Assembly (NCBI RefSeq): GCF_002953935.1
Contig: NZ_CP026514.1
Coordinates: forward strand, 1,860,001-1,924,000
Reading direction: 5' to 3'
DNA: 64,000 bases
Origin: Arthrobacter sp. PGP41
GTDB taxonomy: Bacteria; Actinomycetota; Actinomycetes; Actinomycetales; Micrococcaceae
Below are positions 18,035-60,667 of this stretch, piece after piece. Below the pieces are notes generated by a model. It had not been told where the DNA came from, ran no database searches, and saw only the letters and a program-made list of their open reading frames with translations. The position numbers and the translations under genes were made by a program. Each line of letters starts with the position of its first letter. The first letter of the stretch is position 1.

Positions 18035-18101
18035 AACGTTAAGTTGGAGGGACCCCGGCCCGGCATGGCAATGAACGCCGTCCGCATGGGAAAGTACGCC
18101 A
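18035..18101 (-). promoter_or_regulatory. AraC-type promoter element H (upstream of MFS 16420)
   Basis: Read on the minus strand it begins TGGCGTACTTTCCCAT, then 21 bp later CGGCGTTCATTGCCAT, and the -10-like TAACGT follows at the invariant 40-bp distance. It lies about 165 bp before the MFS start. The two boxes share the pattern NGGCGNNNNTTNCCAT, the best-conserved pair of the eight copies. Confidence 0.8.
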
Positions 18102-18138
18102 AGGTACGTTTGCGTTTATCAGGACAATGCGGGCAGGC

Positions 18139-19185
18139 TTAGGCCCCGGATGTGACGTTGGTTTTGTAGTGGGAAGCTTCCCGGTAGGCCGTGGGCGGCA
18201 TGCCCTTCCACCGTTTAAAGGCGATGGTGAAGCTCGCAGGCTCTGTATAGCCAAGCCTGCGGGATATGCGCGCTACCGAAAGATCCGTATTCGAGAGCAA
18301 ATCGGCGGCAAGGTCGCTCAGGGTCTTGTCCCGGAGCTGGGCGAAGTCGTCCCCGGTGAGTTCAAGCTTGCGCTGCAGGGTGCGAGGAGAAACTCGAAGT
18401 GTTGCGGCCACGTTTGCCAGTTTGCGGTTAAGCTCAGGGGCCGCCTTTATGGTCTTTGCGACAGTGTCGGCCCAGTCTCCGGTCGCCCTGAGAGTGTCGA
18501 CGATCTGGGTATCCGCCTTGATCCACGCCGCGTGCTGAAAGGCGTTACCGAAAGGAAGCTCCTGTGCTGACGTTGCTGGGTCCCACCATAGCCGCAGCGT
18601 TTCGGCGCCACAGTCGATCACGCAGGGAACGTTAGCCGCAAGTTCGGGGGAGGCTTCCGCGAGAGGGAATTCAATCTGGGTGAAAGGGAAAGGGCTGCCA
18701 TAGAGCCAGGTGAAATTCCGGGCAATGAAACAAAGGTCGCGGTAAACGCTGAACGGGATCAGCTCTTCCGGGGCATCGGGGTAGGTGAACTCCATCCCGG
18801 TTACTGCGCCATCCGGTGTCCTCAGTGACGCCAGTTCGAACAGCGCAGGGCCATAGTCAGTGGTACTCGCAACGTCTACCCACGCCTCGATGGTCGGCGC
18901 AGTAGCAAGGGCCAATCCTCTCACCCCGAAGGCGCCCAGTGAGTAAGCGCGCGCTGCGCGCACCCAGAGATCCACACGATCTTCTGTTAGACCAACGAAC
19001 TGAAGCTGGAAGGCCAATTCCTTCCTCGCAGGAATTGTCCCTCCCGGACGGTTCACCGCATCGGGGTCAATTTCCGCATGCGCGAGCGCGCTCTGCCAAT
19101 CCAGGTCCGCATCCTCAAGCAGTCCACGCAGTATGTGCACGCTAAAATTTGGTACCCGAAGGTTCTGGTATGTTCCCCCTTTCAC
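18139..19185 (-). CDS. AraC family regulator with arabinose-binding-like N-domain
   Basis: The 348-residue regulator has a long N-terminal ligand domain (NFSVHILRGLLEDADLDW start) and a C-terminal double helix-turn-helix: VSPRTLQRKLELTGDDF, then SVARISRRLGYTEPASFTIAFKRW and the PPTAYR ending. GTG 19185 is preferred to GTG 19194: AGAAGG then lies 8 bases upstream and MKGGTYQNLRVPNF lines up exactly with the paralog at 22568 (MKLSSYQNLRLPNF), giving equal lengths. It sits beside elements H and A, consistent with it activating those promoters. Confidence 0.9.
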   Translation of the reverse strand: MKGGTYQNLRVPNFSVHILRGLLEDADLDWQSALAHAEIDPDAVNRPGGTIPARKELAFQLQFVGLTEDRVDLWVRAARAYSLGAFGVRGLALATAPTIEAWVDVASTTDYGPALFELASLRTPDGAVTGMEFTYPDAPEELIPFSVYRDLCFIARNFTWLYGSPFPFTQIEFPLAEASPELAANVPCVIDCGAETLRLWWDPATSAQELPFGNAFQHAAWIKADTQIVDTLRATGDWADTVAKTIKAAPELNRKLANVAATLRVSPRTLQRKLELTGDDFAQLRDKTLSDLAADLLSNTDLSVARISRRLGYTEPASFTIAFKRWKGMPPTAYREASHYKTNVTSGA

Positions 19186-19387
19186 CGTCGCCACCTTCTG
19201 CCCCAGGCATACCGGGGCGACTTAGCAAGTCCAGGACGGGATGGGGGAAGCATCTCTCTCCTCTTCTTTGTGGAGGGACGGGCTCCTGCTCGAAAGCGCA
19301 TCGGCAAATCCGAGTATCAGAAGGCTCGTGAAGTCACGTCAGTAGCTTTGCACCTTCGGGGGCTTACAACACGCCAAAGAGCGCGTT

Positions 19388-19454
19388 TGGCGCGGTTTCC
19401 CATCTACTTGGCGTCGCTGGTCCTGCCGGTCCAACGCTGCGGGCTCCTAACGTT
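19388..19454 (+). promoter_or_regulatory. AraC-type promoter element A (upstream of small gene and GH15)
   Basis: In this 319-bp gap the element has box 1 TGGCGCGGTTTCCCAT, box 2 TGGCGTCGCTGGTCCT 21 bp later, and TAACGT at the -10 position (19448-19453). It faces the 49-residue gene at 19514 and GH15 at 19732. No second promoter for the AraC gene transcribed the other way was recognised. Confidence 0.78.
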
Positions 19455-19513
19455 GAAGCTAAGCAAGGCCTCGCAAGGGAGCCGAAACAAAGCAACGAAG
19501 GAGAGGAAACGAG

Positions 19514-19663
19514 ATGACGCGCGAAGAAGCCTTCACACTCTGCCCTTCAGACTCCTATGTGGAGCTCTACGGAAACCAGTGGCTCATCGTTCCGTTTGCA
19601 CCGGTCGCACAGCCTCAGTTCTTTGTCTGTACACCAGGCCAACGCAATGCCCAAGCACGGTAA
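19514..19663 (+). CDS. Small protein, 49 residues, unknown
   Basis: ATG 19514 is preceded by GGAGAGGAAACGAG and lies 60 bases after the -10 of element A, the right distance for a first gene. It encodes 49 residues starting MTREEAFTLCPSDSYVELYG and including NQWLIVPFAPVAQPQFF, ending GQRNAQAR. No family is recognised and no membrane segment is evident. Position (same strand, 68 bp before GH15) suggests a shared transcript. Coding is supported by promoter, ribosome site and codon use only. Confidence 0.5.
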   Translation: MTREEAFTLCPSDSYVELYGNQWLIVPFAPVAQPQFFVCTPGQRNAQAR

Positions 19664-19731: not shown

Positions 19732-21525
19732 ATGGCTGCCCAGATTGAGGATTATGCGCTGCTTTCGGATCTCCACACCGGACCCCTTGTTTCCCGGCAG
19801 GGCAGTGTGGACTGGCTCTGCTTCCCGCGTTTCGACTCGCCCTCTGTCTTTGCCTCCCTGCTCGGGCACGAAGACCATGGCCGGTGGCTGCTAGCCCCGA
19901 GTCCGCCGGAGGCCGCTGTCGTGGACCGTCACTATGTGGACTCGACCTTCGTACTCCAAACAACGTGGCAGACCAATTCCGGAAAGGTCTTGGTGACGGA
20001 CTTCATGCCTGTGGGTGACGCCCAGCCATCACTCGTCCGGCGGGTAACCGGACTCAGCGGGACAGTTCAAATGCGTCAAGAGATAAGGATTCGGCCCCAG
20101 TACGCCACCGTACTGCCTTGGGTGAGCAGGATCCGCGACAGCGCGGCCCCCGGCGCCGAAATACTTCTCGCCATGTCCGGTCCGGACGCTCTGTCTTTGC
20201 GGGGCACCCCCCTTCCGCAAGCAGAAGACCACCGGCATGCGGGGGAGTTCACGGTCCAGCAGGGACTGAACGTGGACTTCCACCTAACATGGTTCCCTTC
20301 CTACCGCGACGTGCCGCCGGCCATCAATATTGACGCAGCCCTGGACGACGCCATCCACTACTGGACCACGTGGGCGGGCAATTGCCGCTACGACGGGCCC
20401 TATCAGAGTGTGGTCAAGCGTTCACTTCTGGTTTTACGGGCTCTAACCCACTACGAGACGGGCGGCATTGTCGCCGCTCCTACCACTTCCTTGCCTGAGG
20501 AGTTTGGCGGACCACGCAACTGGGACTATCGCTACTGTTGGCTGCGCGATGCATCCTTGACGCTCGAAGCCATGTTAACGCACGGCTACGAATCCGAAGC
20601 CCTGAAGTGGCGCAACTGGCTCCTGCGGGCGCTCGCGGGCGATCCAGAGGAACTGCAAATAATGTACGGCGTAGGGGGCGAACGCGACCTGACGGAAAAG
20701 GAACTCCCCCACCTGCCTGGCTATCAGGACGCCAGACCCGTTCGAATCGGCAACGCAGCCGTCTTCCAGCATCAGGCCGATGTTGTGGGGGAGGTGATGG
20801 TGGTACTGGAGAGGCTTCGCCTTGCCGGAGGTAAGGAGGACCATTTCTCCTGGGCCCTGCAGCGCGCCCTCCTTGGATCAGTGGACAAACACTTCGAAGA
20901 CAAAGACCTGGGGCTGTGGGAAATGCGGGGCGCTCCGCAGTACTTCACGCACTCCCGCGTCATGATGTGGGCAGCCTATGACAGCGGAGTACGGGCTGTC
21001 CGGGACCATGGACTGCCTGGACCGCTGGGGCACTGGGAGCGGCATCGGGATCGACTGGCGGCAGAAATAGCGGACCTCGGATTCAACCGCAACCTTAATT
21101 CCTTTACCCAGACATACGGGGGCGAGGAGACGGACGCGGCCCTGCTGGTCTTGCCGCAGGTCGGATTCCTCGGCTACGACGATGAGCGGATGCTGGGAAC
21201 AGTCGCCCAGTTGGAGAAGGACCTACTTACCGCAGGGGGCCTGATGATGCGCTACCGCACCGAGACCGGCGTCGACGGATTGGCGCCGGGGGAACATCCA
21301 TTCCTTGCCTGCTCCTTCTGGCTGGTGGAACAGTACGCACGCTCGGGCCGACTGGCAGACGCCAAGCACCTGATGGGCGACCTGGTGGGACTTTCCAATG
21401 ACCTCGGCCTGCTCAGCGAAGAATACGCCATGAACGAAAAACGGATGGCGGGAAACTTTCCACAAGCCTTCTCCCACCTAGCCCTGATACGGGCCGCAGA
21501 CGCCATGCGCAGCGCGGGCGTCTAA
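19732..21525 (+). CDS. Glycoside hydrolase family 15 protein (trehalase/glucoamylase-like)
   Basis: The 597-residue protein opens IEDYALLSDLHTGPLVSRQGSVDWLC, the actinobacterial GH15 trehalase-like N-terminus (super-sandwich domain). The (alpha/alpha)6 barrel carries GGPRNWDYRYCWLRDASL and GVGGERDLTEKELPHLPGY, where a catalytic Glu is expected, and a C-terminal ACSFWLVEQYARSGR segment. The family hydrolyses alpha-glucosidic bonds by inversion; trehalose or an alpha-glucoside is likely. No signal peptide is seen. It lies under AraC-type element A, so it may release the aglycone of a glucoside. It overlaps the end of the convergent AraC gene by 4 bases. Confidence 0.92.
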   Translation: MAAQIEDYALLSDLHTGPLVSRQGSVDWLCFPRFDSPSVFASLLGHEDHGRWLLAPSPPEAAVVDRHYVDSTFVLQTTWQTNSGKVLVTDFMPVGDAQPSLVRRVTGLSGTVQMRQEIRIRPQYATVLPWVSRIRDSAAPGAEILLAMSGPDALSLRGTPLPQAEDHRHAGEFTVQQGLNVDFHLTWFPSYRDVPPAINIDAALDDAIHYWTTWAGNCRYDGPYQSVVKRSLLVLRALTHYETGGIVAAPTTSLPEEFGGPRNWDYRYCWLRDASLTLEAMLTHGYESEALKWRNWLLRALAGDPEELQIMYGVGGERDLTEKELPHLPGYQDARPVRIGNAAVFQHQADVVGEVMVVLERLRLAGGKEDHFSWALQRALLGSVDKHFEDKDLGLWEMRGAPQYFTHSRVMMWAAYDSGVRAVRDHGLPGPLGHWERHRDRLAAEIADLGFNRNLNSFTQTYGGEETDAALLVLPQVGFLGYDDERMLGTVAQLEKDLLTAGGLMMRYRTETGVDGLAPGEHPFLACSFWLVEQYARSGRLADAKHLMGDLVGLSNDLGLLSEEYAMNEKRMAGNFPQAFSHLALIRAADAMRSAGV

Positions 21526-22568
21526 GCCTTGGACCTTCCGCTGTTCTTGTATCGGGACGCTTCCCTGTAGGCCGTCGGCGGCATCCCATTCCACCGTTTG
21601 AAGGCGATGGTGAAGCTCGTTGGGTCCGTGTAACCCAGAGTGCGTGATATCCGTGCGACAGAGTGATCCGTTTTCGAGAGCAGATCGCCGGCCAGGTCAC
21701 GCAGGGCTTTGTCCCGGAGCTGGGCGAAGTCGTCTCCGGTGAGTTCGAGCTTGCGCTGCAGGGTACGGGGCGAGACCCGCAGTGTTGCGGCCACATTTGC
21801 TAGTTTGCGGTTGAGCTCTGGCGCGGCTTTTATGGTCTTCATGACAGTGTCGGGCCAGTCGCCGGTTGCCCTTAGATTGTCAAGAATCTGGTGATCCGCT
21901 TTGAGCCATGCTTCGTGTTGAAAGGCGTTACCGAAGGGGAGCTCCTGTACCGATGTTTCCGGAGCCCACCAGAGCCGCAGTGCATCCGATCCGCAGTCGA
22001 TGACGCACGGGACGAAGGGAAAAATCTCAGGGGAGGCTTCTGCCAGAGGGAAATCGATCCGGGTGAAGGGGAAAGGGCCGCCGTACATCCATGTGAAAGT
22101 TCGGGCAATAACGCAGAAATCGCGGTAGACGCTGAACGGGATGAGCTCTGCAGGGGTATCGGGGTAGGTGTACTCCATACCGGTCACAGTGCCATCCAAC
22201 GTCCGGAGAGGCGTAATTTCCATCAGGCCGGGGGCATAGTCTGTTGAGCTGCCGGCTTCTACCCAGGCCCCAATGGTCGGCGCGGTAGCGAGGGCCAATC
22301 CGCGTATGCCGAAGGATCCTAGTGTGTAAGCCTGTGCGGCCTTCACCCAGAGGTCGACACGATCTTTTGTGAGAGCCACGAACTGCAGTTGGAACGCCAA
22401 CTCCTTCTTCGCAGGAATAGTGCCTCCCGGGCGGTCGATCGCGTCGGGGTCGATTTCCGCGTTTGTGAGCGCAGTTTGCCAATCAAGGTCCGCGTCCTTC
22501 AACACCGCGCATAGTCCGTGAACGCTGAAGTTGGGTAGTCGCAGATTCTGATAAGAGCTTAGTTTCAC
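21522..22568 (-). CDS. AraC family regulator, paralog of 18139-19185
   Basis: This 348-residue protein is the same length as its paralog and highly similar along the whole chain. The helix-turn-helix part is VSPRTLQRKLELTGDDF and SVARISRTLGYTDPTSFTIAFKRW. GTG 22568 has AAAGGAGG upstream. It is divergent from the flavin-reductase operon with element B between them. Recognition helices of the two paralogs are almost the same, so both may bind the same boxes; differences lie in the ligand domain, suggesting two inducers for one regulon. Confidence 0.9.
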   Translation of the reverse strand: MKLSSYQNLRLPNFSVHGLCAVLKDADLDWQTALTNAEIDPDAIDRPGGTIPAKKELAFQLQFVALTKDRVDLWVKAAQAYTLGSFGIRGLALATAPTIGAWVEAGSSTDYAPGLMEITPLRTLDGTVTGMEYTYPDTPAELIPFSVYRDFCVIARTFTWMYGGPFPFTRIDFPLAEASPEIFPFVPCVIDCGSDALRLWWAPETSVQELPFGNAFQHEAWLKADHQILDNLRATGDWPDTVMKTIKAAPELNRKLANVAATLRVSPRTLQRKLELTGDDFAQLRDKALRDLAGDLLSKTDHSVARISRTLGYTDPTSFTIAFKRWNGMPPTAYREASRYKNSGRSKA

Positions 22569-22705: not shown

Positions 22706-22772
22706 TGACGCAGTTTCCCATCTGTTTGGCATGTCTTGCCATGCCGCTTACCTCACCTGCGCACCTAACGTT
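22706..22772 (+). promoter_or_regulatory. AraC-type promoter element B (upstream of monooxygenase operon)
   Basis: Box 1 is TGACGCAGTTTCCCAT (22706), box 2 is TGGCATGTCTTGCCAT (22727) and TAACGT starts at 22766. It is followed by the leader with AAAGGAGATCCGGTG (22808-22837) that recurs at 44209 and 46264. Confidence 0.8.
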
Positions 22773-22829
22773 GAAGCCCTGAGCAAGGGCCGGCAGTGAA
22801 GCCGGCGCACTGATATCAAAGGAGATCCG

Positions 22830-23366
22830 GTGAGCTTATCCATCACCCAAAGCCTTGAACCGGCAATAACTGCCGACGAATTCAAGGCGGCATTCCGCAA
22901 CCATCCCGGCGGTGTCGCTGTTATCACGGCTGATGCGGGGAACGGGCCGGTCGGCCTGACTGCAACGTCTGTCATTTCGGCCAGTGCCGAACCTGCGATT
23001 CTCGCATTCTCAGTGTCGGAATTTTCGTCCAGCACTCCGACTATCCTCGGCGCAGACACCGTCATCGTCCATTTACTGGGCGCTGACCAAGTGGACATCG
23101 CCAAACTCTGCGCCACCAGCGGAATTGACCGCTTTGCTGACACCTCTCTCTGGTCGCGACTGGAGACCGGCGAGCCCTACTTTGTGGGGGCCCAGGCTTG
23201 GATCCGGGGCAGGATCATCAACTCGATGGCCGCCGGTGGGTCGTCCATCGTGGCCGTCGAGGCGCTCCAGGCGTCACCGGCGCTGTCAGCAGACACGGCG
23301 CCTGCAGACCCGCTGGTCTACCACAACCGGCGCTGGCACGCCCTTGGGGATGCATCCCAGATCTGA
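22830..23366 (+). CDS. Flavin reductase (FMN-binding split barrel)
   Basis: The protein has 178 residues with the flavin-reductase-like fold: FRNHPGGVAVITADAGNGPVG, LTATSVISASAEPAILAFSVS, and a C-terminal PLVYHNRRWHAL. Such proteins supply reduced FMN to two-component monooxygenases. GTG 22830 has an ideal AAAGGAGAT. The luciferase-like monooxygenase that would use the FMNH2 starts 75 bp downstream, so the two form a two-component system at the head of a long operon (22.8-33.1 kb). Confidence 0.9.
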   Translation: MSLSITQSLEPAITADEFKAAFRNHPGGVAVITADAGNGPVGLTATSVISASAEPAILAFSVSEFSSSTPTILGADTVIVHLLGADQVDIAKLCATSGIDRFADTSLWSRLETGEPYFVGAQAWIRGRIINSMAAGGSSIVAVEALQASPALSADTAPADPLVYHNRRWHALGDASQI

Positions 23367-23440
23367 ACCGTGACCCCGCCGGTCATAACAAATCCAACCT
23401 GTTCCACATCCAATTTCATCTTCCCGAAAGGACGGCGATT

Positions 23441-24643
23441 ATGAGCATCGCATCCAACGAAACTTCCACCGGCCCTTCCGTTGATCGCGACTTCGTTGCG
23501 GACTATACAGTCGAGCGTGATAACGGCCCAATGGTCGGAGGCGACAACGCTTTCAAGGTGGCGATCTTCGGCGCGAACGTGTCCACGGGGCAGGGCGGCC
23601 TGAACTTCGCCGACAACAGCATCAAGCTTGGCAACTGGGGCGAAGTGCAGCATCTCGCGCAGAAAGCGGACCGGTACGGCGTGGACGGGTTCATCCCCAT
23701 CGCGCGCTGGCAGGGGCTCGCCGGTCCCGACCGGCCTTGGGGCCGTCAGTTCGAGACGTTCACCTGGGCCGCGGGACTGGCCGCGGTGACCCAGAACATC
23801 CAGATCATCGCCACCTGCAACGTGCAGTTCATCAACCCCGTGATGGGCGCGAAAATGGTGACCACCATTGACCACATCAGCGGCGGCCGCATGGGGCTCA
23901 ACGTCACAGCGGGCTACTTCAAGCCTGAATACGATATCTTCGGCGTGGAGCTCCCCGAGCACGACGTTCGTTACGAACTCGCCGACGAGTGGATTGAGAT
24001 CGCCGAGCGTCTGTGGGCCAATGAGGAGCAGGAGTTCGACTTCGACGGCAAGTTCTTTAACCTGAAGGGCGCGCAGGCGCACCCGAAGCCCGTGCAGTCC
24101 CCCCGCCCGATGGTGATGAGCGCCGGTTCGAGCCCCGCAGGTCAGGAGTTCGCGTTCAAGCACGCAAACGTCTTGTTCGCATCGGTGGCAAGCGTCGAGC
24201 ACAGCGGCGAGCTCACGCCGAAAATCCGGCAGAAAGCCGACGCGGCCGGTCGCGAGGACCTCGGCCTGTGGGCGGGCGCGCACATCATCGTCAAGGACAC
24301 CGAGAAGGAAGCACGCGCCTACGCCGACTACGTGACAGAGAGCACCGACTGGGAGAGCGCGCTTCGCTACCGCGAAATCATCCGCAGCGGCACCCAGAGC
24401 TTCAACTGGGATGAGTACAAGCAGTCCGAGGACTACAAGCGTGACGAGTCCGTGAGGGCCTTTGGCCGCGCGGCGCTCATGCCGATCACGGGCACCCCCG
24501 AGATGGTGGTCGAGGAGCTGCAGAAGTTGCAGGCCTCGGGCATCACCGGCATCTGCACCGGCCTCGTCGACTATGACGAGGGCCTCGACCGGCTGAACGA
24601 GCAGGTCTTCCCGCTGATGCGCGAGGCGGGCCTGCGCGCCTGA
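23441..24643 (+). CDS. LLM-class flavin-dependent monooxygenase
   Basis: The 400-residue protein has the bacterial-luciferase-like barrel: LAQKADRYGVDGFIPIARW, FTWAAGLAAVTQNIQIIATCNV, DHISGGRMGLNVTAGY, and HANVLFASV. The pattern is closest to the RutA/SsuD/NtaA branch, which uses FMNH2 and O2 to cleave C-N, C-S or C-C bonds or to insert oxygen. ATG 23441 follows an AAAGGA site; the open frame extending further upstream overlaps the reductase and is not used. Substrate is unknown. In cyclic-ketone pathways, members of this superfamily act as type II Baeyer-Villiger enzymes, one candidate role here. Confidence 0.9.
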   Translation: MSIASNETSTGPSVDRDFVADYTVERDNGPMVGGDNAFKVAIFGANVSTGQGGLNFADNSIKLGNWGEVQHLAQKADRYGVDGFIPIARWQGLAGPDRPWGRQFETFTWAAGLAAVTQNIQIIATCNVQFINPVMGAKMVTTIDHISGGRMGLNVTAGYFKPEYDIFGVELPEHDVRYELADEWIEIAERLWANEEQEFDFDGKFFNLKGAQAHPKPVQSPRPMVMSAGSSPAGQEFAFKHANVLFASVASVEHSGELTPKIRQKADAAGREDLGLWAGAHIIVKDTEKEARAYADYVTESTDWESALRYREIIRSGTQSFNWDEYKQSEDYKRDESVRAFGRAALMPITGTPEMVVEELQKLQASGITGICTGLVDYDEGLDRLNEQVFPLMREAGLRA

Positions 24644-24679
24644 CGACCAAAGCGTCCATCCAGAAAGGAGTGAACACAG

Positions 24680-25198
24680 ATGACTTTTCCTGATCCCAAG
24701 AAATTCCAACTCGTCGTCGCGGGACCGAACGAATCCGGCGAAGCAGACTTCCTCGAAGTTGGCCCGGCCGCCGAATTCGACTTCCCCGGCGTGGCAGCGG
24801 GCGCTTTCTACTGGGCCGTGGACGGAGGCCACAGCAAAACGAACTTCGGTGCCCCGCCAAGCAAGGTCGCCCTAGCGGGACGCAATGGATCCACCTTCGG
24901 TATCAGCAGCTTCCCCGCGCACTCGTCAGGCGAAGTGGACGCGGCGACGCTCGACGAAAGCATGAGCGCCACCGACGACGGCGACGCCGGAATGCACGCG
25001 AGCGACACCATCGATTACGAGGTGGTTATCTCAGGCAAGGTGGACCTTGTACTCCCCGGCGGTAAGAAGCGCACGCTCGTTCCGGGAGACCTGCTCGTCA
25101 TGGCCGGCGTACCCCATGCTTGGAAGAACCCCTACGACGAGGACTGCGTCTACGTCGTGGTCACGGTCGGTTTCAACACCCCTGAGGCCGCATCATGA
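24680..25198 (+). CDS. Cupin domain protein
   Basis: The protein has 172 residues. The cupin core is in the C-terminal half: SDTIDYEVVISGKVDLVL, PGGKKRTLVPGDLLVMAGVPHAWKNP, with the motif 2 PxxxxHxW His and an earlier Asp/Glu pair. The first half reads as a beta-rich extension. AAAGGAG precedes ATG 24680. Its stop overlaps the next start by 4 bases. Cupins of this sort are small isomerases, dioxygenases or ligand sensors; its placement after the monooxygenase suggests it acts on that product. Confidence 0.85.
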   Translation: MTFPDPKKFQLVVAGPNESGEADFLEVGPAAEFDFPGVAAGAFYWAVDGGHSKTNFGAPPSKVALAGRNGSTFGISSFPAHSSGEVDAATLDESMSATDDGDAGMHASDTIDYEVVISGKVDLVLPGGKKRTLVPGDLLVMAGVPHAWKNPYDEDCVYVVVTVGFNTPEAAS

Positions 25199-26145
25199 GC
25201 CTGACCTCACCCGGCAAGGCGCTGCGTGCAGTCTTCGACAGTCCCGAAACGGCACTGGTGCCGTTCGGCGCCTTGCCGCTCCACGCACAGATGGCGCAGC
25301 ACGCCGGCTTCGATGCCTTCCAGCTCTCCGGCGGTATGTCTGCCTGGTGGCAGGGAGTCTCCGACACGGGATGGCTCACCCTCACCGAGGTGGTTGAGCA
25401 CGCAAAGCGCACTGCCCGCGCCGCTGACATTCCCATTTATTGCGACGCCGATACCGGCTTTGGTGCGCCGATCAACGTTCAGCGCACGGTGTCCGAGTTC
25501 ATTGACGCGGGCGTCGCCGGAATCCACATTGAGGATCAGCGGGAGCCCAAGAAATCAGGCGGTGTCGCCGGGATCGAACTGGTGTCGGACGCCGAGGCTA
25601 TCGGACGACTCAACGCAGCCGTGGATGCCCGCGACAAATTGGACAGCGATTTCGTCATCGTTGCCCGTACAGACGGCTACGGAGCCGCCGGCGGTGGCGT
25701 GGATGAGGCGATCCGCCGCGCCCAGCTCTACAAAGCCGAGACCGGCGCGGACGTCATCTTCTACGAGGGATTCCATACCTGGGAGCAGGCCGAATTCGCG
25801 CTGAAGGAGACGCCCGGGCCAGCCTACGCCGTCGGGGTTCCGCTGATCGGACGTAAGACCGTCGCCGAGATGACAAAGATTGGCCAGGCGATACAGCCCG
25901 TGGCCTTCGTGCTTCCCGGGGTCAAAGAGGTTTGGCGCTTGCTGATGCAGGTCAAGAAATCAGGAGAGGCTACGCCCATCGGCGAGTACATCGACCACTT
26001 GAACGATGGCCCCGACAGTATCGGCTGGGGCGCAATGTTCGGTCGTCCCTTGACCGACTACGTGCGTGAAACCGAGGACAGGTTCCTCCCCCAGGACTCG
26101 CGCCGCAACTATGACAACAACGTCCACGTTGGAGAGAGCTACTAA
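25195..26145 (+). CDS. Isocitrate lyase/PEP mutase family enzyme
   Basis: The 316-residue barrel protein has DADTGFGAPINV (metal-binding Asp region), GVAGIHIEDQREPKKSG and VARTDGYGAAGGG. The position of the catalytic Cys in isocitrate and methylisocitrate lyases (KKCGH) is KKSG here, so a classic lyase mechanism with a Cys acid is unlikely; oxaloacetate decarboxylase, PEP mutase-like or dimethylmalate-lyase-like chemistry remains open. It overlaps the cupin gene (ATGA) and the next SDR, so it is tightly co-translated. A second, distant member is at 34298-35173. Confidence 0.85.
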   Translation: MSLTSPGKALRAVFDSPETALVPFGALPLHAQMAQHAGFDAFQLSGGMSAWWQGVSDTGWLTLTEVVEHAKRTARAADIPIYCDADTGFGAPINVQRTVSEFIDAGVAGIHIEDQREPKKSGGVAGIELVSDAEAIGRLNAAVDARDKLDSDFVIVARTDGYGAAGGGVDEAIRRAQLYKAETGADVIFYEGFHTWEQAEFALKETPGPAYAVGVPLIGRKTVAEMTKIGQAIQPVAFVLPGVKEVWRLLMQVKKSGEATPIGEYIDHLNDGPDSIGWGAMFGRPLTDYVRETEDRFLPQDSRRNYDNNVHVGESY

Positions 26146-26162
26146 TGAATGAGGAGAAACTG

Positions 26163-26921
26163 ATGATGAAAGACAAAGCCGGACTCGTCACCGGCGCGGG
26201 CTCGGGCATTGGCCGGGCTAGTGCCCTGGCGTTCGCAAAGAACGGCGCGCGCGTAGTGGTGTCCGATATTGATGAGGCAGCCGGGCGCGAAACGGTGGAG
26301 ATCATCGCAGCAGCTGGTGGGAAGGCTGTCTTCTTCCAGTGTGATGTCAGCGACGAGGAGCAGGTCAAGGGCCTTGTCGATGCGACGGTGTCGAACTTCG
26401 GGCAGCTGGACTTCGCTTTCAACAATGCCGGGATGAACGGGGTCTTCGCACCTATTGGGGAGACCGACAGCGCGACCTGGGACCGGGTCATGAAGGTGAA
26501 CCTGTACAGCACCTTCTACTGCCTTAAGCACGAAGTCAACGCGATGCTGAAGACCGGTGGCGGTGCGATCGTCAACACTGCTTCTGCTGCGGGCCTCGTA
26601 GGAATCGCCAACAACGCCCCGTACACCGCCTCGAAGTTTGGCGTTGTCGGGATCACGAGGAACGCGGCCATGGACTACGGCCCCCTGGGCATTCGCATCA
26701 ACGCCCTCACACCCGGATCGACGACGAGTCCCATGATGAAGAACGCTTTCGAGCAGAACCCGCCCGAATTCCGGGAAAGGATTCTGTCGGCGATCCCGAT
26801 GCGCGACCTGGCCGAACCCGAGGATCAGGCAGATGCCGTTGTGTGGCTCTGCTCTGACCAAGCCCGCATGGTTACCGGAATCTCCCTGGCGGTCGACGGC
26901 GGCTGGCTGGCCGGCAAGTAA
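26163..26921 (+). CDS. SDR family oxidoreductase
   Basis: This 252-residue SDR has TGAGSGIG, NNAG, Ser in TASAAGLVG, PYTASKFG and the VTGISLAVDGG ending. An ATG at 26145 overlaps the previous stop, but ATG 26163 has AGGAG six bases upstream and gives the usual short N-terminus (MMKDKAGLVTG), so it is preferred. The acidic residue after the second strand (SDID) suggests NAD(H). It is the first of three SDRs in the operon and probably oxidises a ring alcohol. Confidence 0.9.
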   Translation: MMKDKAGLVTGAGSGIGRASALAFAKNGARVVVSDIDEAAGRETVEIIAAAGGKAVFFQCDVSDEEQVKGLVDATVSNFGQLDFAFNNAGMNGVFAPIGETDSATWDRVMKVNLYSTFYCLKHEVNAMLKTGGGAIVNTASAAGLVGIANNAPYTASKFGVVGITRNAAMDYGPLGIRINALTPGSTTSPMMKNAFEQNPPEFRERILSAIPMRDLAEPEDQADAVVWLCSDQARMVTGISLAVDGGWLAGK

Positions 26922-26963
26922 GTGGCACTGCCATCCGGTTCAAAAAATATGGAGCAACTGAAA

Positions 26964-27887
26964 ATGACTAATCTTGATTTCAACGGCCGGGTGGCAATCG
27001 TCACGGGCGCAGGACAGGGAATGGGCCGCGAGCACGCAAAGATGCTCGCCTCCCGCGGGGCGCGGGTCGTCGTCAATGACGTCAACGCGGCGAACGCAGC
27101 CGAAGCTGTGGCCGAAATAACCAACGCAGGCGGCACCGCAGTGGTGGACAGTCATAACGTCGTCACCGAGGCGCCTGAGATCGTCCAGACCGCACTCGAC
27201 TCCTTTGGGCAGCTCGACATCGTCGTGAACAACGCCGGGATTAATGCGTTCGGCCGCTTCTGGGAGATGGAAGCCGACACGTGGTGGCGCATCTTCGACG
27301 TGGCCGTCAAGGGCGTCGTCGGAGTCTCACGTGCTGCCATGCCGCACCTCATCGCCTCAGGCACTGGGCGGCTTATCAACATCTCGTCAAACGGGGTCAT
27401 GGGCGTGCCCACGGACTCGGCCTACAACGCCGCCAAGGCCGCCATCTGGGGTCTCGGCATCACCCTCGCGGCCGAGGCCCGCGAGGTGGGAGTTCAAGTC
27501 ACCACGCTGATGCCGGTTGCCTTGACGCCGATGACGGAGGACGCCTTCCCTAACCCCGTCATTAAGGACGCGATGCGCACGACCGTTCCGGCAAGCTCGG
27601 TGTCTGCCTTCGTAACGTGGTTGGCGCACCAGGACACGGCAGTTTTCGGCGAAACGTTTGAGATCGCCGGAGTTGCTGCCGGTCGCGTCGCGATTGCCGG
27701 CATGCCGCGAATGAAGGTCGAAGCGCCCACGCCGGAGAGCTGGGCCGACAGCGGAGAGGTGCTCATGAAGGACGGCGAGCTGCGGGCATTCCGCAACGCG
27801 AGCGAGTCGTTCCGCGACCAGATGGTGTACTTGGCGCCGGAGCTGGACGAGGTCCTCCCCGCCAACGCGGCAGACGTCTCGAGGTGA
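26964..27887 (+). CDS. SDR family oxidoreductase
   Basis: This is a 307-residue SDR, about 50 longer than the classical form. TGAGQGMG is near residue 13, NNAG near 92, Ser in ISSNGVMG and AYNAAKAA follow. The extra C-terminal part (after TFEIAGVAAGRVAIAG) lacks the common V-T-G-x4-V-D-G-G ending and may form a lid or dimer arm. ATG 26964 has GGAG nine bases upstream and fits the family start; earlier in-frame codons at 26922 and 26949 do not. It sits 42 bp after the previous SDR. Confidence 0.88.
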   Translation: MTNLDFNGRVAIVTGAGQGMGREHAKMLASRGARVVVNDVNAANAAEAVAEITNAGGTAVVDSHNVVTEAPEIVQTALDSFGQLDIVVNNAGINAFGRFWEMEADTWWRIFDVAVKGVVGVSRAAMPHLIASGTGRLINISSNGVMGVPTDSAYNAAKAAIWGLGITLAAEAREVGVQVTTLMPVALTPMTEDAFPNPVIKDAMRTTVPASSVSAFVTWLAHQDTAVFGETFEIAGVAAGRVAIAGMPRMKVEAPTPESWADSGEVLMKDGELRAFRNASESFRDQMVYLAPELDEVLPANAADVSR

Positions 27888-27963
27888 CCGCGTCGCTGCA
27901 TAACCGTCTCTTACCGGCAAGATCACGGCCAACACTGGCTCTCAACTCAAAACAAGGATTCTC

Positions 27964-28707
27964 ATGAAGATCGGCATTCTAGGAGCAGGTTCGATAGGCG
28001 CGACACTCGCCCGCAAATTGAGTGGAGCCGGCCATGATGTTAAGGTTGCGAATTCCCGTGGCCCCGAAACCATCAGTTCCGACATTGTGGCATCGGGGGC
28101 ACGACCAGTAGAAGCAAGCAGCGCTGTCACCGACGTCGATGTCCTCATCACGTCCATGCCGCTCAGCCGGATGCCCGAGGTTAGAACCCTTATCACCGAC
28201 CTCCCGGCCAACGCCGTCATCATCGACACGTCCAACTACTACCCCCTGCGTGATGGGCGGGTGGAAGCCTTGGAAGACGGGCAGGTCGAAAGCGTCTGGA
28301 TTACCGAGCAGCTCGGGCGCCCGGTTGCGAAGGCCTGGAACGCCATCACGGCCGAGTCATTCGAGGCCTATGGAAGAAAAGATGGGGATCCCGAACGGAT
28401 TGCCATCCCTGTGGCCGCGGATCGCGATCGCGACAAGGCGGTAGCAATGGCCCTCGTCGAGGAGACCGGGTTTGACGCGGTCGACGCCGGATCCCTGGCG
28501 GACTCCTGGCGCCAGCAGCCCGGAGCGCCCAGCTACTGCACCGACTTCACGCGCGAGACGCTACGGGAGGCCCTTGCTGCCGCTGAGAAGGCCCGGCTGC
28601 CGCAGCGACGGGACATCGCGCTTGCAGCCATCATGGAACGGTTCCCGGACTATTCGAAAGTCACTGCGGACTACCTTGTCCGACTGCATCGGGCCATCTA
28701 CAGCTGA
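27964..28707 (+). CDS. Rossmann-fold NAD(P)-binding reductase, F420-oxidoreductase-like
   Basis: The 247-residue protein starts MKIGILGAGSIGATLARKL, has VANSRGPET, DTSNYYP and DSWRQQPGAPSYCTD, the signatures shared with the proteins at 2658, 4615 and 48749. AAGGA lies 7 bases before the ATG. Unlike the other copies it has no ArsR partner and sits inside the main catabolic operon between an SDR and the thiolase. That position argues for a direct catabolic step, for example reduction of a C=C or C=O bond in the ring-derived intermediate. Confidence 0.87.
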   Translation: MKIGILGAGSIGATLARKLSGAGHDVKVANSRGPETISSDIVASGARPVEASSAVTDVDVLITSMPLSRMPEVRTLITDLPANAVIIDTSNYYPLRDGRVEALEDGQVESVWITEQLGRPVAKAWNAITAESFEAYGRKDGDPERIAIPVAADRDRDKAVAMALVEETGFDAVDAGSLADSWRQQPGAPSYCTDFTRETLREALAAAEKARLPQRRDIALAAIMERFPDYSKVTADYLVRLHRAIYS

Positions 28708-28749
28708 ACTCGTGACAAATCACCGTCGGCCGCAGGCCAAGGAGCAGTA

Positions 28750-29940
28750 GTGAACCTCAAAGAAGATGTAGTCATCGTCGGGGCTGCCCGGACTCCCCAG
28801 GGCCGGATGATGGGCCAGCTCGCCACGGTTTCCGCCGTCGAGCTCGGCGGGGTTGCAATCGCTGCCGCTTTGGACAGGGCAGGCATTAGTGCTGATGCTG
28901 TTGACGCCGTTGTCATGGGCCATGTGATCCAGGCAGGGGCCGGCCAGAACCCTGCACGGCAGGCAGCGGTAGCCGGGGGGATACCGCTGAGTGCCCACGC
29001 CGTCACCGTGAATAAGGTGTGCCTGTCCGGGCTGAGCGCGATCATCGAAGCCAGCCGGCTGCTCCAGCTTGGAGAAGCGGAAGTGGTCATCGCAGGGGGA
29101 CAGGAATCGATGAGTAATGCCCCGCACCTGCTTCGCGGTTCCCGGGCAGGGCATCTCTACGGGGATGCAGTGCTGACAGACGCCCTTGCCCGCGACGGAC
29201 TCACCGATGCCTTCGACCAAGAGTCAATGGGCCTCAACACTGATCGTGCCAATGACTTGCTCGGCATCGGACGGGCCGAGCAGGACAAGGCCGCTGCAGA
29301 CTCCCACCGGCGGGCAGCAGCGGCCCAAGGTTCAGGGTACTTCGATAAGGAAATAGTTCCGGTCAAAGTGCCGCGTCGCCGGGGAGGGCCTGAACTGGCA
29401 GGCAGCGACGAGGGCGTCCGGCCGGACAGCAATGAGGAGTCCCTCAGCAAACTTCGCCCGGCGTTCTCCCCCGCGGGTACCGTCACGGCCGGCAACGCCT
29501 CACCGCTCACGGATGGCGCTGCCGCCGTCGTCCTGACCACGCGCGGCTATGCGGAAGCCCACGGCTTAGAGGTCGTGGCGGTACTAGGGGCCCACGGTCA
29601 GATCGCCGGCCCCGACACATCACTGCCGGACAAACCAGCCCAGGCCATAGCGAAGGCGCTTGGAGCCGCAGGTTGGACTGCGGGGGAGCTGGACCTCGTG
29701 GAGATCAACGAAGCGTTCGCTTCCGTGGCGCTCCACTCGGCGGCGCAGCTCGGAATTGGGATGGACAGGGTCAACGTCAACGGCGGTGCCATTGCTCTCG
29801 GACACCCCATCGGCGCCTCGGGGGCACGAGTCGTCGTCTCGGCCGTGTACGAACTCCAACGCCGCGGAAGGGGCAAGGCCGTGGTGGCCCTCTGCGGTGG
29901 AGGCGGGCAGGGCGAGGCACTGCTCCTGTCCCTGAGCTGA
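28750..29940 (+). CDS. Thiolase (acetyl-CoA acyltransferase)
   Basis: The 396-residue thiolase has the nucleophilic Cys in [10 protein letters not shown] near residue 90, [13 protein letters not shown], the NEAFA motif near 320, [10 protein letters not shown] with the catalytic His near 350 and the CGGGGQG motif near 380. GTG 28750 has AAGGAG upstream. It would cleave a 3-oxoacyl-CoA produced by the hydratases and dehydrogenases in the window, releasing acetyl- or propionyl-CoA. Length and motifs are complete. Confidence 0.95.
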
Positions 29941-29943
29941 TAG

Positions 29944-30573
29944 ATGACTGAAGTATTTGAGCTCATGAAGGAGGCTGCGTCGAAAAACGGCAACACGGCG
30001 GACTGGGCCGCCGAACTGCAGCAACTTCGGGTCCTTGTTGCCAAGCAGGAGTTGAACGAGAACATGATCCGCTATTGCCGGGGCATGGACCGCAAGGACC
30101 TTGACCTGGTGAAGTCCACCTACTGGCCTGAAGCGACTGAAGATCATGGCATGTTCGTGGGCCTGTCCCATGATTTCTGCGACTGGGCGTATTCCATGCG
30201 GCGGGAGTCCGCCCACAAGGCCAGTCACTACGTAACCAACATACTCATTGAATTGAACGGCAACCAGGCCAGGCGTGAAACGGCGTTTATCTACCTGGCC
30301 ATACCGGCCGACGGCGGCCCTACCGACCTTCTTTTGGGCCGTTACCGGGATCTGTGCGAGCGGCGCCAGGGGGAGTGGAAGGTGCTCGCGAGGACTTGCG
30401 TGTGGGACGGGGCGCAAAGACTCGCTCCGGAAGCGGACGTCGCCGAGCTGTTCGGCATTCCGCCCACGTCCAACTTCGGCGACCGCTATCCGCACGACCC
30501 GACCTATGCCACGGATTGGGGAAAAGCAGCCCCGGTCCAGACTACGAATGCAAAGGAGCATCTTAATGACTAG
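29944..30573 (+). CDS. SnoaL-like (NTF2 fold) protein
   Basis: The protein has 209 residues. After a 30-residue N-terminal helix comes the SnoaL_4 type cone: [55 protein letters not shown] and [19 protein letters not shown]. It resembles the 49708 protein and the small NTF2-fold subunits or isomerases of ring-degrading pathways. Start is 3 bases after the thiolase stop; the end overlaps the next SDR start. An isomerase, hydratase or dehydratase role is possible. Confidence 0.82.
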
Positions 30574-37683: not shown

Positions 37684-37723
37684 GCATCCCAGCCGATGTG
37701 GAAGCAACACAGCGAAGGTTGCC

Positions 37724-44175: not shown

Positions 44176-44230
44176 ATTTGTGAACAAAGATCGGCGAAGT
44201 AGCCGACGCACTGACATCAAAGGAGATCCG

Positions 44231-46232: not shown

Positions 46233-46315
46233 GATTGTGGGCGAAGTCAGCAAGAAGGCTACGCACTGAGATCAAAGGAGATCCCGTGAGCTTCCCCGGA
46301 CGTGAAGGAATAGCA

Positions 46316-49582: not shown

Positions 49583-49649
49583 TGACGCAGTTTCCCAACT
49601 GCATGGCGCCCAAGATGCTATCCGTCCAGCAACGCCTGCTTTTAGCGTA
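49583..49649 (+). promoter_or_regulatory. AraC-type promoter element F (upstream of SnoaL-like gene)
   Basis: Box 1 TGACGCAGTTTCCCAA (49583), box 2 TGGCGCCCAAGATGCT (49604), TAGCGT at 49643. The start codon at 49708 lies 60 bases after the -10. Confidence 0.75.
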
Positions 49650-49707
49650 GTTTCTCACGAGGGCCGCAAAGAAGCTGCCTGGCGTTTGGAATAGAAAGTC
49701 TGGATAC

Positions 49708-50247
49708 ATGTCCCTCACAGATGCTCAACTGACTGAGTTGTATGACAAACAAGCCCTCCATGACAACCTCATGTTGTATGCGAGGGGCGCCGACCGGCAC
49801 GACCGCGAGCTGATGAAATCCACATATTGGCCTGATTCATTCGATAATCACGGCGGCTATGTCGGAAACGGCCAGGAGTGGGCTGATGCAGCCATGACCT
49901 GGCACGACAAGATCCACAGCTGCAGCCACCACATCTCCAACGTCCTGTCCGAGATCGACGGCAACCGGGCCAAGCGCGAAAGCACGTTCATCTGCGTGGT
50001 CCCGTTCAAGGACCCCGAGGTGACAATGTTCCAGGCCGGCCGCTACCGCGACTTGTGCGAAAAGCGCGACGGCGTGTGGAAAATCCTTCACCGCACCTGC
50101 ATCTGGGACTGGATCGACGTCCGGCCCGTCAACTCGGACTGGGACATCGTGGGCGTCCCCCGCGTCTCGCACTGGGGAGCCTGGCATCCCGAGGACCCGA
50201 TCTACAAGGACTGGGTCGACAGCCCGCCGACCGAATTCTCGCGGTAG
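49708..50247 (+). CDS. SnoaL-like (NTF2 fold) protein
   Basis: The 179-residue protein has ALHDNLMLYARGADRHDRELMKSTYWPDSFDNHGGYVG, then HHISNVLSEIDGNRAKRESTFI and [28 protein letters not shown]. It shares the RGxDRxDxxLxKSTYWP, SHHxxN and GRYRDLCE blocks with the protein at 29944. Acidic and His residues in these blocks could form an active site, as in SnoaL_4-type isomerases/hydratases and small dioxygenase subunits. It is a single gene between element F and a bidirectional terminator. Confidence 0.83.
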   Translation: MSLTDAQLTELYDKQALHDNLMLYARGADRHDRELMKSTYWPDSFDNHGGYVGNGQEWADAAMTWHDKIHSCSHHISNVLSEIDGNRAKRESTFICVVPFKDPEVTMFQAGRYRDLCEKRDGVWKILHRTCIWDWIDVRPVNSDWDIVGVPRVSHWGAWHPEDPIYKDWVDSPPTEFSR

Positions 50248-58930: not shown

Positions 58931-59145
58931 CGGCACTATCACTAGTGGCATTGCTTAAAGGGCCACAAGGTCAGAAGTATCGCATTATGAAAGGTAGATA
59001 GGCTATACGAAAGTTTCTCTTGACGCACTGTCTGAATCGAACTAGCTTCGACGTACCGACCCGGCCGCACGAAGAAGAGCGTCTGGCGGGATCCACCTGT
59101 AACCCGGTCGCCTTTGGTGCCGGCGGAAAACACCCAGGAGAACAC

Positions 59146-60516
59146 ATGCGGACAACGAAGTCGCAGGCCCTGCTGACTACTGGATTAAAGGCGGAACAGG
59201 ACGTGCCCATCGTCCAACCCGCAGAATCCAAGGAGTTCGGGCCAGACCAGAAGAAGCTGCTGCACCGCACTGTCGCCGGCAGCGTCGTCGGCAACATCAT
59301 CGAGCAATACGACTTTGTGCTTTACGGATCGGTTGCCGCCCTGGTCTTCGGCAAGCTGTTTTTTCCGACCTTCGATCCGACTGTCGCCCTGCTTGCCGCG
59401 TTCGGGACCTATTCCGTCGGTTTCATTGCCCGCCCGCTCGGTAGCCTGGTGGCGGGGCATGTCGGTGACCTCCGCGGTCGTAAGGGCGTCCTGGTTGCCA
59501 TGCTGCTCATCGCCGGGATTTCAACGACCGCCATGGGACTTCTTCCGACCTATGCTGTTGTTGGGATCTGGGCACCGTTATTTCTCGTCACCCTGCGGTT
59601 CGTGCAGGGCTTCTCGTTTGGCGGAGAATACGGTGGCGCCATTCTGATGGTCAGCGAGACGGCTCCCCGGGAAAAGCGGGGCTTTTATACCGGATTCATC
59701 CCGGCATCGTCAGCGGTAGGCGGGCTGCTTTCAACAGGGGTGCTCTTCGCTCTGAGTTTCATGCCAGCGGAGACGTTCGAAGCGTGGGGCTGGCGCGTCC
59801 CTTTCCTTGCGTCGATCATCCTCGTCGTGACTGGCCTCATCATTCGGCTTCGGCTCAAAGAGACCCCGGTATACAAGAACGCCGAGACGCAGGGAAAGAT
59901 CACCCGTAAGCCCATCCTCGAAGTGATAAAGGCCAACCCAAAGGAGCTACTCCTCGCGGCGGGAATCAGTTTCGGATTCGGCACGCTCACCTATGGCGTA
60001 GTGACCTGGTTATTGAGCTACATCACCAACAACCTCAAGCTTGACGCGGGTGTGGGTCTCATTGCGCTAACCATCGCTTTCGTCTTCTACGGCCTCAGCG
60101 ACTGGGTGAGCTCAGCTATCTCTGACCGGGTAGGTCGACGGCCGGTCATACTCACAGGTGGAATTGCTTTTGCCGTCTGGTCATTTCCGATGTTCTCGCT
60201 GATCGACACAAGGAACTCCATACTCATCACGCTGGCGATGGCAGTTGCACTTATCCTATGCGGAATGATTTACGGCCCGCTTGCCTCGCTGATCAGTGAG
60301 CTCTTTGCCACCAAATTTCGTTACAGCGGCGCATCGATGGGCTACCAGCTCGGCCAGACCCTGGGCGGTGGATTCTCGCCCCTGATCGCAACGGCCCTCT
60401 ACGCAGCAACACGGACTTCCTTTTCGGTCGCGCTCTATCTCGTGATTGCCGGGCTCATCACCGCCGCCTGTGTGTTCTTCCTAACGGAAACCAATGGACG
60501 AGACCTCACACAATAA
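59146..60516 (+). CDS. MFS transporter, metabolite:H+ symporter (MHS) family
   Basis: The 456-residue, 12-helix protein has the MHS hallmarks: HRTVAGSVVGNIIEQYDFVLYG before helix 1, GHVGDLRGRKGVLV in loop 2-3, RFVQGFSFGGEYGGAILMVSE and APREKRGFYTG. ATG 59146 follows CAGGAGAACAC; frame-open starts upstream lack ribosome sites. MHS carriers bring in carboxylates such as shikimate, ketoglutarate or aromatic acids. The promoter region has an AT-rich block TATCGCATTATGAAAG near 58979 like that before the VOC operon, so it may be the uptake system for the acid activated at 40810. Confidence 0.92.
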   Translation: MRTTKSQALLTTGLKAEQDVPIVQPAESKEFGPDQKKLLHRTVAGSVVGNIIEQYDFVLYGSVAALVFGKLFFPTFDPTVALLAAFGTYSVGFIARPLGSLVAGHVGDLRGRKGVLVAMLLIAGISTTAMGLLPTYAVVGIWAPLFLVTLRFVQGFSFGGEYGGAILMVSETAPREKRGFYTGFIPASSAVGGLLSTGVLFALSFMPAETFEAWGWRVPFLASIILVVTGLIIRLRLKETPVYKNAETQGKITRKPILEVIKANPKELLLAAGISFGFGTLTYGVVTWLLSYITNNLKLDAGVGLIALTIAFVFYGLSDWVSSAISDRVGRRPVILTGGIAFAVWSFPMFSLIDTRNSILITLAMAVALILCGMIYGPLASLISELFATKFRYSGASMGYQLGQTLGGGFSPLIATALYAATRTSFSVALYLVIAGLITAACVFFLTETNGRDLTQ

Positions 60517-60535
60517 CCGTCAGTCAACTGTCACC

Positions 60536-60570
60536 GGCTCTGCCCTCTCCCGCTGGCAGCGGGCAGAGCC
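60536..60570 (+). terminator. Terminator after MHS transporter
   Basis: GGCTCTGCCC (60536-60545) pairs with GGGCAGAGCC (60561-60570), 20 bases after the stop. The 15-base loop contains a further short stem. Confidence 0.75.
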
Positions 60571-60600
60571 TGGACCAGGAGCGGATCGGTGGCCACAAAA

Positions 60601-60667
60601 TGGCGCATATTCGGGCGTTGTTGGCGTGGATGGCTATGAGCGGCCCGTGCGGGTCGCTTTTAGCCTT
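60601..60667 (+). promoter_or_regulatory. AraC-type promoter element G (upstream of 60832)
   Basis: Within the 315-bp gap after the MHS gene: box 1 TGGCGCATATTCGGGC (60601), box 2 TGGCGTGGATGGCTAT (60622), TAGCCT at 60661. It is the most diverged copy but keeps both spacings. It drives the 70-residue gene and the DHA2 exporter. Confidence 0.7.

Follow-up and report, generated by a model that had tools for sequence, protein, structure and literature searches.

The 64,000-nucleotide stretch of Arthrobacter sp. PGP41 analysed here (contig NZ_CP026514.1, positions 1,860,001 to 1,924,000, referred to as the window) holds a large oxidative catabolic cluster, two paralogous AraC-type regulator genes, and eight copies of a 70-bp element that resemble the operator-promoters of AraC/XylS-type activators. 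All coordinates are positions in the whole window. The elements and the genes that they precede are as follows, with the number of seven close relatives in which each site was also found.

18032..18101, minus strand: predicted operator-promoter of a major facilitator superfamily (MFS) transporter gene; box 1 18101-18085, box 2 18080-18064, -10 TAACGT 18041-18036; 7 of 7 relatives
19388..19457, plus strand: predicted operator-promoter of the unit of a 49-residue open reading frame (ORF) and a GH15 gene; box 1 19388-19404, box 2 19409-19425, -10 TAACGT 19448-19453; 7 of 7 relatives
22706..22775, plus strand: predicted operator-promoter of the flavin reductase/luciferase-like monooxygenase (LLM) operon; box 1 22706-22722, box 2 22727-22743, -10 TAACGT 22766-22771; 7 of 7 relatives
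36192..36261, plus strand: predicted operator-promoter of a creatinase-like M24 gene; box 1 36192-36208, box 2 36213-36229, -10 TAGCGT 36252-36257; 7 of 7 relatives, also genome G208
44109..44178, plus strand: predicted operator-promoter of a Baeyer-Villiger monooxygenase (BVMO) gene; box 1 44109-44125, box 2 44130-44146, -10 TAGCGT 44169-44174; 7 of 7 relatives
46166..46235, plus strand: predicted operator-promoter of a short-chain dehydrogenase/reductase (SDR) gene (ATG 46316); box 1 46166-46182, box 2 46187-46203, -10 TAGCGT 46226-46231; 7 of 7 relatives
49583..49652, plus strand: predicted operator-promoter of a SnoaL-like gene; box 1 49583-49599, box 2 49604-49620, -10 TAGCGT 49643-49648; 5 of 7 relatives, also the A. 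hankyongi SnoaL orthologue
60601..60670, plus strand: predicted operator-promoter of a 70-residue ORF and a DHA2-type exporter gene; box 1 60601-60617, box 2 60622-60638, -10 TAGCCT 60661-60666; 7 of 7 relatives

Each element is made up of two boxes of the type TGRCR-N6-CCCAT followed by TANNNT. The copies lie where a first-pass annotation of the sequence had placed them, and the spacing that it gave is exact: the box starts are 21 bp apart in all eight without deviation, and the TANNNT begins at element position 61 in every copy, 39 bp past the start of box 2 and so 40 bp after the base preceding it. The two-box form of its T(G/A)GCG-type description stands, but the wording does not, as TG(G/A)C(G/A) fits better and the consensus half-site is TGGCG-N6-CCCAT. 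Its assignment of downstream genes holds in general but not at 60601, where the 70-residue ORF (60832-61044) comes before the exporter. An ungapped alignment of the eight elements has 14 invariant columns among 70 (T1, G2, C4, T10, T11, C12, G23, G24, C25, T37, T61, A62, C64, and T66). Box 2 abuts the -35 region, and the view that no good -35 hexamer is present was upheld, the closest fit to TTGACA among the eight window sites being three of six bases. Mean pairwise identity in the same alignment is highest in the -10 block (0.70) and the two boxes (0.66 and 0.65); the intervening stretches reach 0.42-0.55 and the bases right after the -10 reach 0.34, while the outer flanks, at 0.26-0.28, lie at background level (null mean 0.264; largest value 0.342 in 200 draws).

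A chance origin of the elements is ruled out by two scans. When each element was scored by a matrix of the other seven on both strands of the window, the left-out elements reached 35.7-75.6 bits and each fell within the top eight window positions, with the best non-site at no more than 2.4. A sequence-only covariance model built from the eight (R1) was run on the 4,270,237-base genome, where 150 of 2316 first-look candidates were scored; the eight elements received 49.1-66.2 bits (E <= 2.9e-12), and nothing else among these candidates exceeded 17.9 bits (next E = 0.017). This result speaks to the absence of such elements elsewhere and not to independent discovery, as the eight had trained R1. 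The first-pass annotation had proposed a matrix scan of the replicon and of related genomes; only the eight are strong in the replicon and sites were found in relatives. The refuting outcome that it named, as many matches at random or within genes, did not occur, since the scan turned up nothing comparable elsewhere in the chromosome. Rfam gave no match at the gathering score across 16000-62500.

Judged by its sequence features, the layout is the ordinary one of an AraC/XylS class II activator. Such promoters have two direct half-sites 20-22 bp apart, here 21 bp in 8/8, with the proximal half-site at a -35 region of poor hexamer, as here, where the best fit is 3/6 and the distance to TANNNT is fixed in 8/8. 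The first-pass annotation knew of no described regulon with this geometry. That claim of novelty is ruled out by XylS, MekR, MtlR, and CphR, all of which have it (PMC4514859, PMC6205950). The XylS operator reads TGCA-N6-GGNTA-N6-TGCA-N6-GGNTA with a period of 21, MekR also has a period of 21, and MtlR has a period of 22 with half-sites at -72 to -58 and -50 to -36 (PMC4514859). XylS/Pm, MekR/PmekA, and MtlR/PmtlE are like the window elements in having tandem 15-bp half-sites of period 21-22 that end at the -35 region, but they differ in half-site sequence, are proteobacterial, and are described with one promoter each (PMC4514859). Another such system is CphR/cphA2A1 of Rhodococcus sp. YH-5B, an actinobacterium, where an AraC-type activator and divergent genes for a two-component monooxygenase are accompanied by two direct half-sites at -69 to -55 and -49 to -35 (PMC6205950). 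CphR differs in its half-site TGCA-N6-GGNTA, its spacing of 20, and the one target operon described for it (PMC6205950), as against TGGC-N7-CCCAT, a spacing of 21, and eight predicted targets in the window. The XylS/CphR half-site TGCA-N6-GGNTA is not what the window boxes (TGGCG-N6-CCCAT) carry; the half-site written as TGGC-N7-CCCAT rather resembles that of E. coli AraC, TAGC-N7-TCCATA (PMC4514859). E. coli AraC at araI1-I2 differs from the window AraCs in its sensor domain and targets. Like the window AraCs, AdpA of Streptomyces has an AraC-type DNA-binding domain, and its consensus is TGGCSNGWWY. Two arginines in its first helix-turn-helix (HTH1) read DNA (PMC8994273), and these would align with R271 and R275 of the window protein AraC1, judged by their spacing of four. 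AdpA differs in having a ThiJ/PfpI sensor domain (PMC8994273), as opposed to PF12625 in the window AraCs, and in being a global regulator of hundreds of genes. VirS (PDB 8rcx) is a weak sequence match (E 5.9e-6), and a literature search aimed at its binding sites did not bring them up.

The two regulator genes among the copies are the following.

18139..19194, minus strand: AraC1, candidate activator with an N-terminal PF12625 sensor and a C-terminal HTH_18 domain (Pfam); HTH1 helix SPRTLQRK (R271, Q274, R275)
21522..22568, minus strand: AraC2, candidate activator, paralogue of AraC1 (Pfam, alignment) with the same HTH1 helix

The claimed pair of AraC paralogues was borne out by Pfam, which found PF12625 and HTH_18 in both. 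The two-HTH DNA-binding domain of the AraC/XylS family is present in AraC1 and AraC2 (PF12833, E 1.7e-16 and 6.2e-16), as is the N-terminal effector and dimerization domain (PF12625, E 3.9e-13 and 3.7e-12). The paralogues are 88% identical in the DNA-binding domain, with HTH1 identical and HTH2 nearly so, and 74% identical in the sensor domain. Homologues of AraC1 occur at 100% identity in Pseudarthrobacter sp. GA104 and at 94-98% in three Arthrobacter strains.

Within the genus, the sites and the AraC go together. AraC1 homologues at E <= 1e-40 are found in 12 of 206 genomes, the present one counted, and the nine in which this homologue reaches 75% identity or more are exactly the nine with full-length R1 matches. 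The R1 scan of the 206, in which 24 candidates per genome were scored under stricter filters, gave matches at E <= 0.001 in 12 genomes, three of them truncated and of 22-27 bits. A broader genus-wide regulon without the AraC is ruled out, as the matches at E <= 0.1 in 24 of 38 other relatives do not exceed 19.6 bits and the three truncated genus matches fall inside long open frames. The seven relatives, among which G138 hardly differs from the window, hold 54 of 56 expected sites, each before the orthologue of its window gene (81-100% identity). Orthologous sites agree with the window at 91% in box 1, 94% in box 2, and 94% in the -10 block, and the 60 bp upstream at 74%. The G208 cluster is spread across several contigs, and five of its sites precede the orthologues of the MFS transporter, the LLM monooxygenase, a second flavin reductase, the M24 protein, and the 49-residue ORF; R1 reached three of the five genome-wide, and R2, a broader model built from 17 sites including two from Nocardia fusca, adds a sixth at C17:5247.

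The association extends to other genera: like A. hankyongi, Nocardia and Streptomyces-like genomes have a counterpart of the 22706 site before this operon. Two strains of N. carnea and one genome of N. fusca, all with an AraC 71% identical, carry a site of 44-46 bits under R1 before an LLM-cupin-lyase-SDR-flavin reductase operon, orthology in the third of these genomes having been checked for the LLM gene only, along with a weaker AraC-side site of 18-29 bits. R2 was then applied to six genomes that had given it no site: three more assigned to Nocardia, by coordinates identical to those of N. carnea, and three that probably belong to Streptomyces, going by Streptomyces-named homologues of 72-74% identity. 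In 6/6 the top genome-wide match (40-56 bits) lay 87-325 bp from an AraC homologue and read toward the LLM gene; the Nocardia trio is only partly independent, with N. fusca sites within R2, and the other trio is independent at the genus level. AraC homologues this close are uncommon, occurring in 3 of 392 genomes of the Streptomyces-like genus, 6 of 150 Nocardia, and 2 of 396 genomes of a phylum sample (own included). A tally of 73 sites, A. hankyongi apart, has a TANNNT -10 in 71, at the canonical place in 67.

A. hankyongi stands apart in both operator and regulator. Its three sites, before orthologues of the flavin reductase/LLM operon, the MFS transporter, and the SnoaL-like gene, keep the 21-bp period and the place of the -10; the third came from R2, itself trained on the first two. 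Position 5 of the box is C in 6/6 boxes, whereas elsewhere it is G or A in 146/146 and never C (73 sites, many of them mutually orthologous). The six further genomes, three Nocardia and three Streptomyces-like, have G in both boxes of all seven sites. The A. hankyongi AraC helix reads SPRTLRRK, where the remaining aligned site-bearing homologues have SPRTLQRK, and the changed residue corresponds to Q274 of AraC1 (Gln to Arg), among other changes in this protein. Nine of 82 AraC homologues compared have the helix SPRTLRRK, and one of the nine may be the A. hankyongi protein itself. Q274 aligns with Gln45 of MarA when query residues 32-100 are matched to 43-112 of PDB entry 1bl0 (a weak match, E 0.069, with 1bl0 chain numbering taken as MarA numbering), and Trp42, Gln45, and Arg46 of MarA touch bases (PMC3315485). 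It is likely, from these comparisons, that A. hankyongi represents a natural operator-specificity shift of an AraC regulon.

Taken together, the eight elements are in all likelihood operator-promoters of the class II AraC/XylS type, serving a single local catabolic regulon activated by AraC. AraC1 and/or AraC2 are very probably the regulators of the eight units, because the site stays beside an AraC gene in other genera, because sites and AraC co-occur within the genus, and because box and helix change together in A. hankyongi. The first-pass proposal of a single regulon served by AraC-type protein(s), with tandem monomers two helical turns apart, gains support from these sequence comparisons. 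Two AraC monomers would bind head-to-tail, the distal one at box 1 (about -72 to -56), the proximal one at box 2 (about -51 to -35), positions that assume a start 7 bp after the TANNNT. Each monomer would place one HTH on TGGC (HTH1, judging by the A. hankyongi change) and the other on CCCAT/GCCAT. The proximal monomer would replace the absent -35 hexamer and bring RNA polymerase to the TANNNT -10. An inducer at the PF12625 sensor domain would lead AraC1 and/or AraC2 to activate MFS uptake, the 49-residue ORF/GH15 unit, the flavin reductase/LLM operon, and the M24, BVMO, SDR, SnoaL, and DHA2 exporter units together. Binding, activation as opposed to repression, the transcription starts, use by both paralogues, and the inducer are what we infer from the sites and proteins. 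Tentatively, and as something possible if short of probable, we propose that AraC1 and AraC2, whose sensors have diverged while HTH1 is identical and HTH2 nearly so, read the same eight operators so that two inducers are integrated at every promoter, and that in the A. hankyongi regulon C took the place of G at position 5 of all six boxes found as one recognition-helix residue went from Q to R, a natural respecification.

It is somewhat unlikely, and less so than any other alternative, that a single paralogue acts on the sites, or that the AraCs also repress without inducer as in an AraC-like light switch, the other paralogue being a decoy or having other targets. One AraC homologue was found in G208, in six Nocardia, and in A. 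hankyongi (in the stretch read), yet sites are present there, and the sensor domains differ by 26%. Because such genomes exist, the comparison suggests that one AraC protein is enough for the sites. In the window itself, however, the HTH1 helix is identical and the HTH2 helix nearly so in both proteins, and the genome scan returned no second strong class of site, though R1 would miss a different motif. That some other regulator binds the boxes, with the AraC genes as bystanders, is very improbable. The cluster does contain an IclR gene (39272) and a GntR gene (57363), both assigned by Pfam, and an unlinked factor could act in their place. Tandem direct TGGC-N7-CCCAT half-sites are nonetheless AraC-like, the Nocardia and Streptomyces-like sites remain next to an AraC gene, and the box change in A. 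hankyongi accompanies a change in the AraC recognition helix.

More improbable still, if only slightly, is the idea that the elements descend from a duplicated promoter-leader cassette and owe their likeness to recent copying and not to a bound regulator. Several leaders are alike past the -10 as far as the Shine-Dalgarno region (CGCACTGACATCAAAGGAGATC), the stretch from box 2 to the -10 is also above background (0.42-0.55), and some copying of promoter and leader probably did happen. Against copying as the whole explanation, likeness in the ungapped alignment peaks in the boxes and the -10 and is no more than background in the outer flanks, orthologues mostly hold the boxes above the upstream flank (0.91-0.94 vs 0.74, with two sites excepted), and the elements recur at the same operon in other genera.

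Several observations weigh against an AraC-activated regulon and its proposed specificity shift. The genes are linked in a cluster, so that co-transfer alone would also give co-occurrence of AraC and site. The box specificity changed a single time, in a single species, where the AraC DNA-binding domain is 80% identical to that of AraC1, with a fifth of positions changed, and residues other than the equivalent of Q274 may matter for the box change. Three genus genomes without the AraC give the weak truncated matches of 22-27 bits, all within long open frames, two Nocardia AraC-side sites lack TANNNT, and R2 also matches elsewhere in G1100 (37 bits) and twice in G865 (41 and 21 bits). The SnoaL site is absent in two of the seven relatives, G202 (gene present, 93%) and G045 (gene fragments only). 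Agreement is also high in the 90 bp downstream of orthologous sites (84% overall); the 22706 site has no contrast between box and flank, its upstream agreeing at 95%, and none is seen for box 1 of the SnoaL site (72% vs 70% upstream). G207 and G091 (AraC 65%) retain, by eye, just a degenerate element in the interval between AraC and flavin reductase, scoring 21.7 and 13.7 bits under R2, respectively, and G074 (AraC 40%) has only one truncated 20-bit match, on a different contig.

The regulon appears to be undescribed, as the searches of open-licence literature gave no paper on it. What would be new is the regulon itself, the paralogue pair with one DNA-reading helix and diverged sensors, and the likely natural shift of operator specificity. 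The predicted regulon map covers a large oxidative catabolic cluster whose core is common to Arthrobacter, Nocardia, and Streptomyces-like genomes, and it points to the genes that would work jointly and the transporters that go with them, narrowing the substrate search. For the evolution of AraC operator specificity, the two paralogues and the change in A. hankyongi make a clean natural example, and the promoters could be used as actinobacterial expression parts once the inducer is known.

The genes that follow the elements are listed below.

16420..17937, minus strand: MFS transporter, predicted regulon member (Pfam); its upstream site is also in A. hankyongi and G208
19514..19663, plus strand: 49-residue ORF, first gene past its site, under coding constraint
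19732..21525, plus strand: GH15 family protein (Pfam), second gene of the 49-residue ORF unit
22830..34129, plus strand: catabolic operon (Pfam), its extent judged from gene order
36427..39286, plus strand: M24 creatinase-like protein and CocE/NonD-type hydrolase (Pfam, NCBIfam)
44293..46029, plus strand: BVMO (Pfam), best PDB relative phenylacetone monooxygenase
46316..47065, plus strand: SDR (Pfam), start codon ATG 46316
49708..50247, plus strand: SnoaL-like protein (Pfam)
60832..61044, plus strand: 70-residue ORF, overlapping the exporter start
61044..62507, plus strand: DHA2-type MFS exporter (MFS_1 in Pfam; DHA2 is the first-pass name)

The catabolic operon encodes a flavin reductase, an LLM monooxygenase, a cupin, a lyase of the phosphoenolpyruvate mutase/isocitrate lyase family, SDRs, an F420_oxidored-like protein, a thiolase, a SnoaL-like protein, an FAD hydroxylase, and a member of the enoyl-CoA hydratase family. 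Its LLM monooxygenase is near RutA/SfnG but under the NCBIfam cut-offs, the lyase is near methylisocitrate/dimethylmalate lyases, and the FAD hydroxylase is near RebC/RdmE/dichlorophenol hydroxylase. Enzyme homology yields classes only, and therefore no substrate is named for the cluster. The 49-residue ORF is 92-100% identical in seven relatives, although in one of them the match covers only 44 of the 49 residues, and its identity in G208 is 67-70%. Most changes in the five differing relatives counted fall at codon position 3, a pattern that marks it as a real small protein. The G208 site precedes this ORF, and GH15 is present only as short fragments in the stretch read there.

The IclR gene (39272-40129) and the GntR gene (57363-58070) within the cluster were assigned by Pfam. 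Divergent to the latter is a minus-strand block (50339-57372) for an aldehyde dehydrogenase, a thiamine pyrophosphate enzyme, and 2-oxoacid dehydrogenase E2 and E1; the window matrix scan found no AraC-type site before it.

Among the relatives, G214 has an extra full-length site on contig 96 (L151 3484-3552; 20.8 bits under R1, 34 under R2), upstream of an ORF (2972-3490) that by eye looks like another SnoaL-like protein, so that this species may have more regulon members. The LLM monooxygenase gene of G091 (L156 10265-11767) lies in three separate match pieces, and the AraC-side operator seems by eye to be partly deleted, so this cluster looks like a decaying copy. AraC1 homologues of 65-66% identity, P0046 and P0053, are labelled Sinorhizobium meliloti and Rhizobium mongolense, which suggests either transfer to alphaproteobacteria or a mislabelled contig. 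Plasmid relatives were distant only; the best AraC among them is 44% identical, and R2 matched nowhere in the plasmid stretch that carries it.

Some leaders have a short hairpin just past the predicted start, in the window at 18004-18019 (minus), 22789-22806 (plus), and 44191-44206 (plus). A perfect stem of at least 5 bp is present in 3/8 leaders of the window, in 6/16 other leaders, and in 4/8 leaders of G161, against shuffle means of 0.8, 1.35, and 0.9; shuffles reached the observed count in 4.7%, 0/300, and 0.3%, respectively, in a test set up after the hairpins had been seen. Control blocks gave 1/8, 3/16, and 0/8 downstream and 0, 1, and 0 upstream, and the five other window leaders and the Nocardia leaders tested had no such stems. 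As a lead only, the hairpin may serve to stabilize the mRNA, or it may be left over from the copying of a promoter-leader cassette. Hairpins are also seen in L153, L179, L180, and L059; examples are GCCGGC-AGTGAA-GCCGGC, TCGGC-GAAGTA-GCCGA, and, at a SnoaL orthologue, GGCAGC-AAAGAA-GCTGCC. The stems vary in sequence yet remain complementary, and several are followed by the common Shine-Dalgarno stretch CGCACTGACATCAAAGGAGATC.

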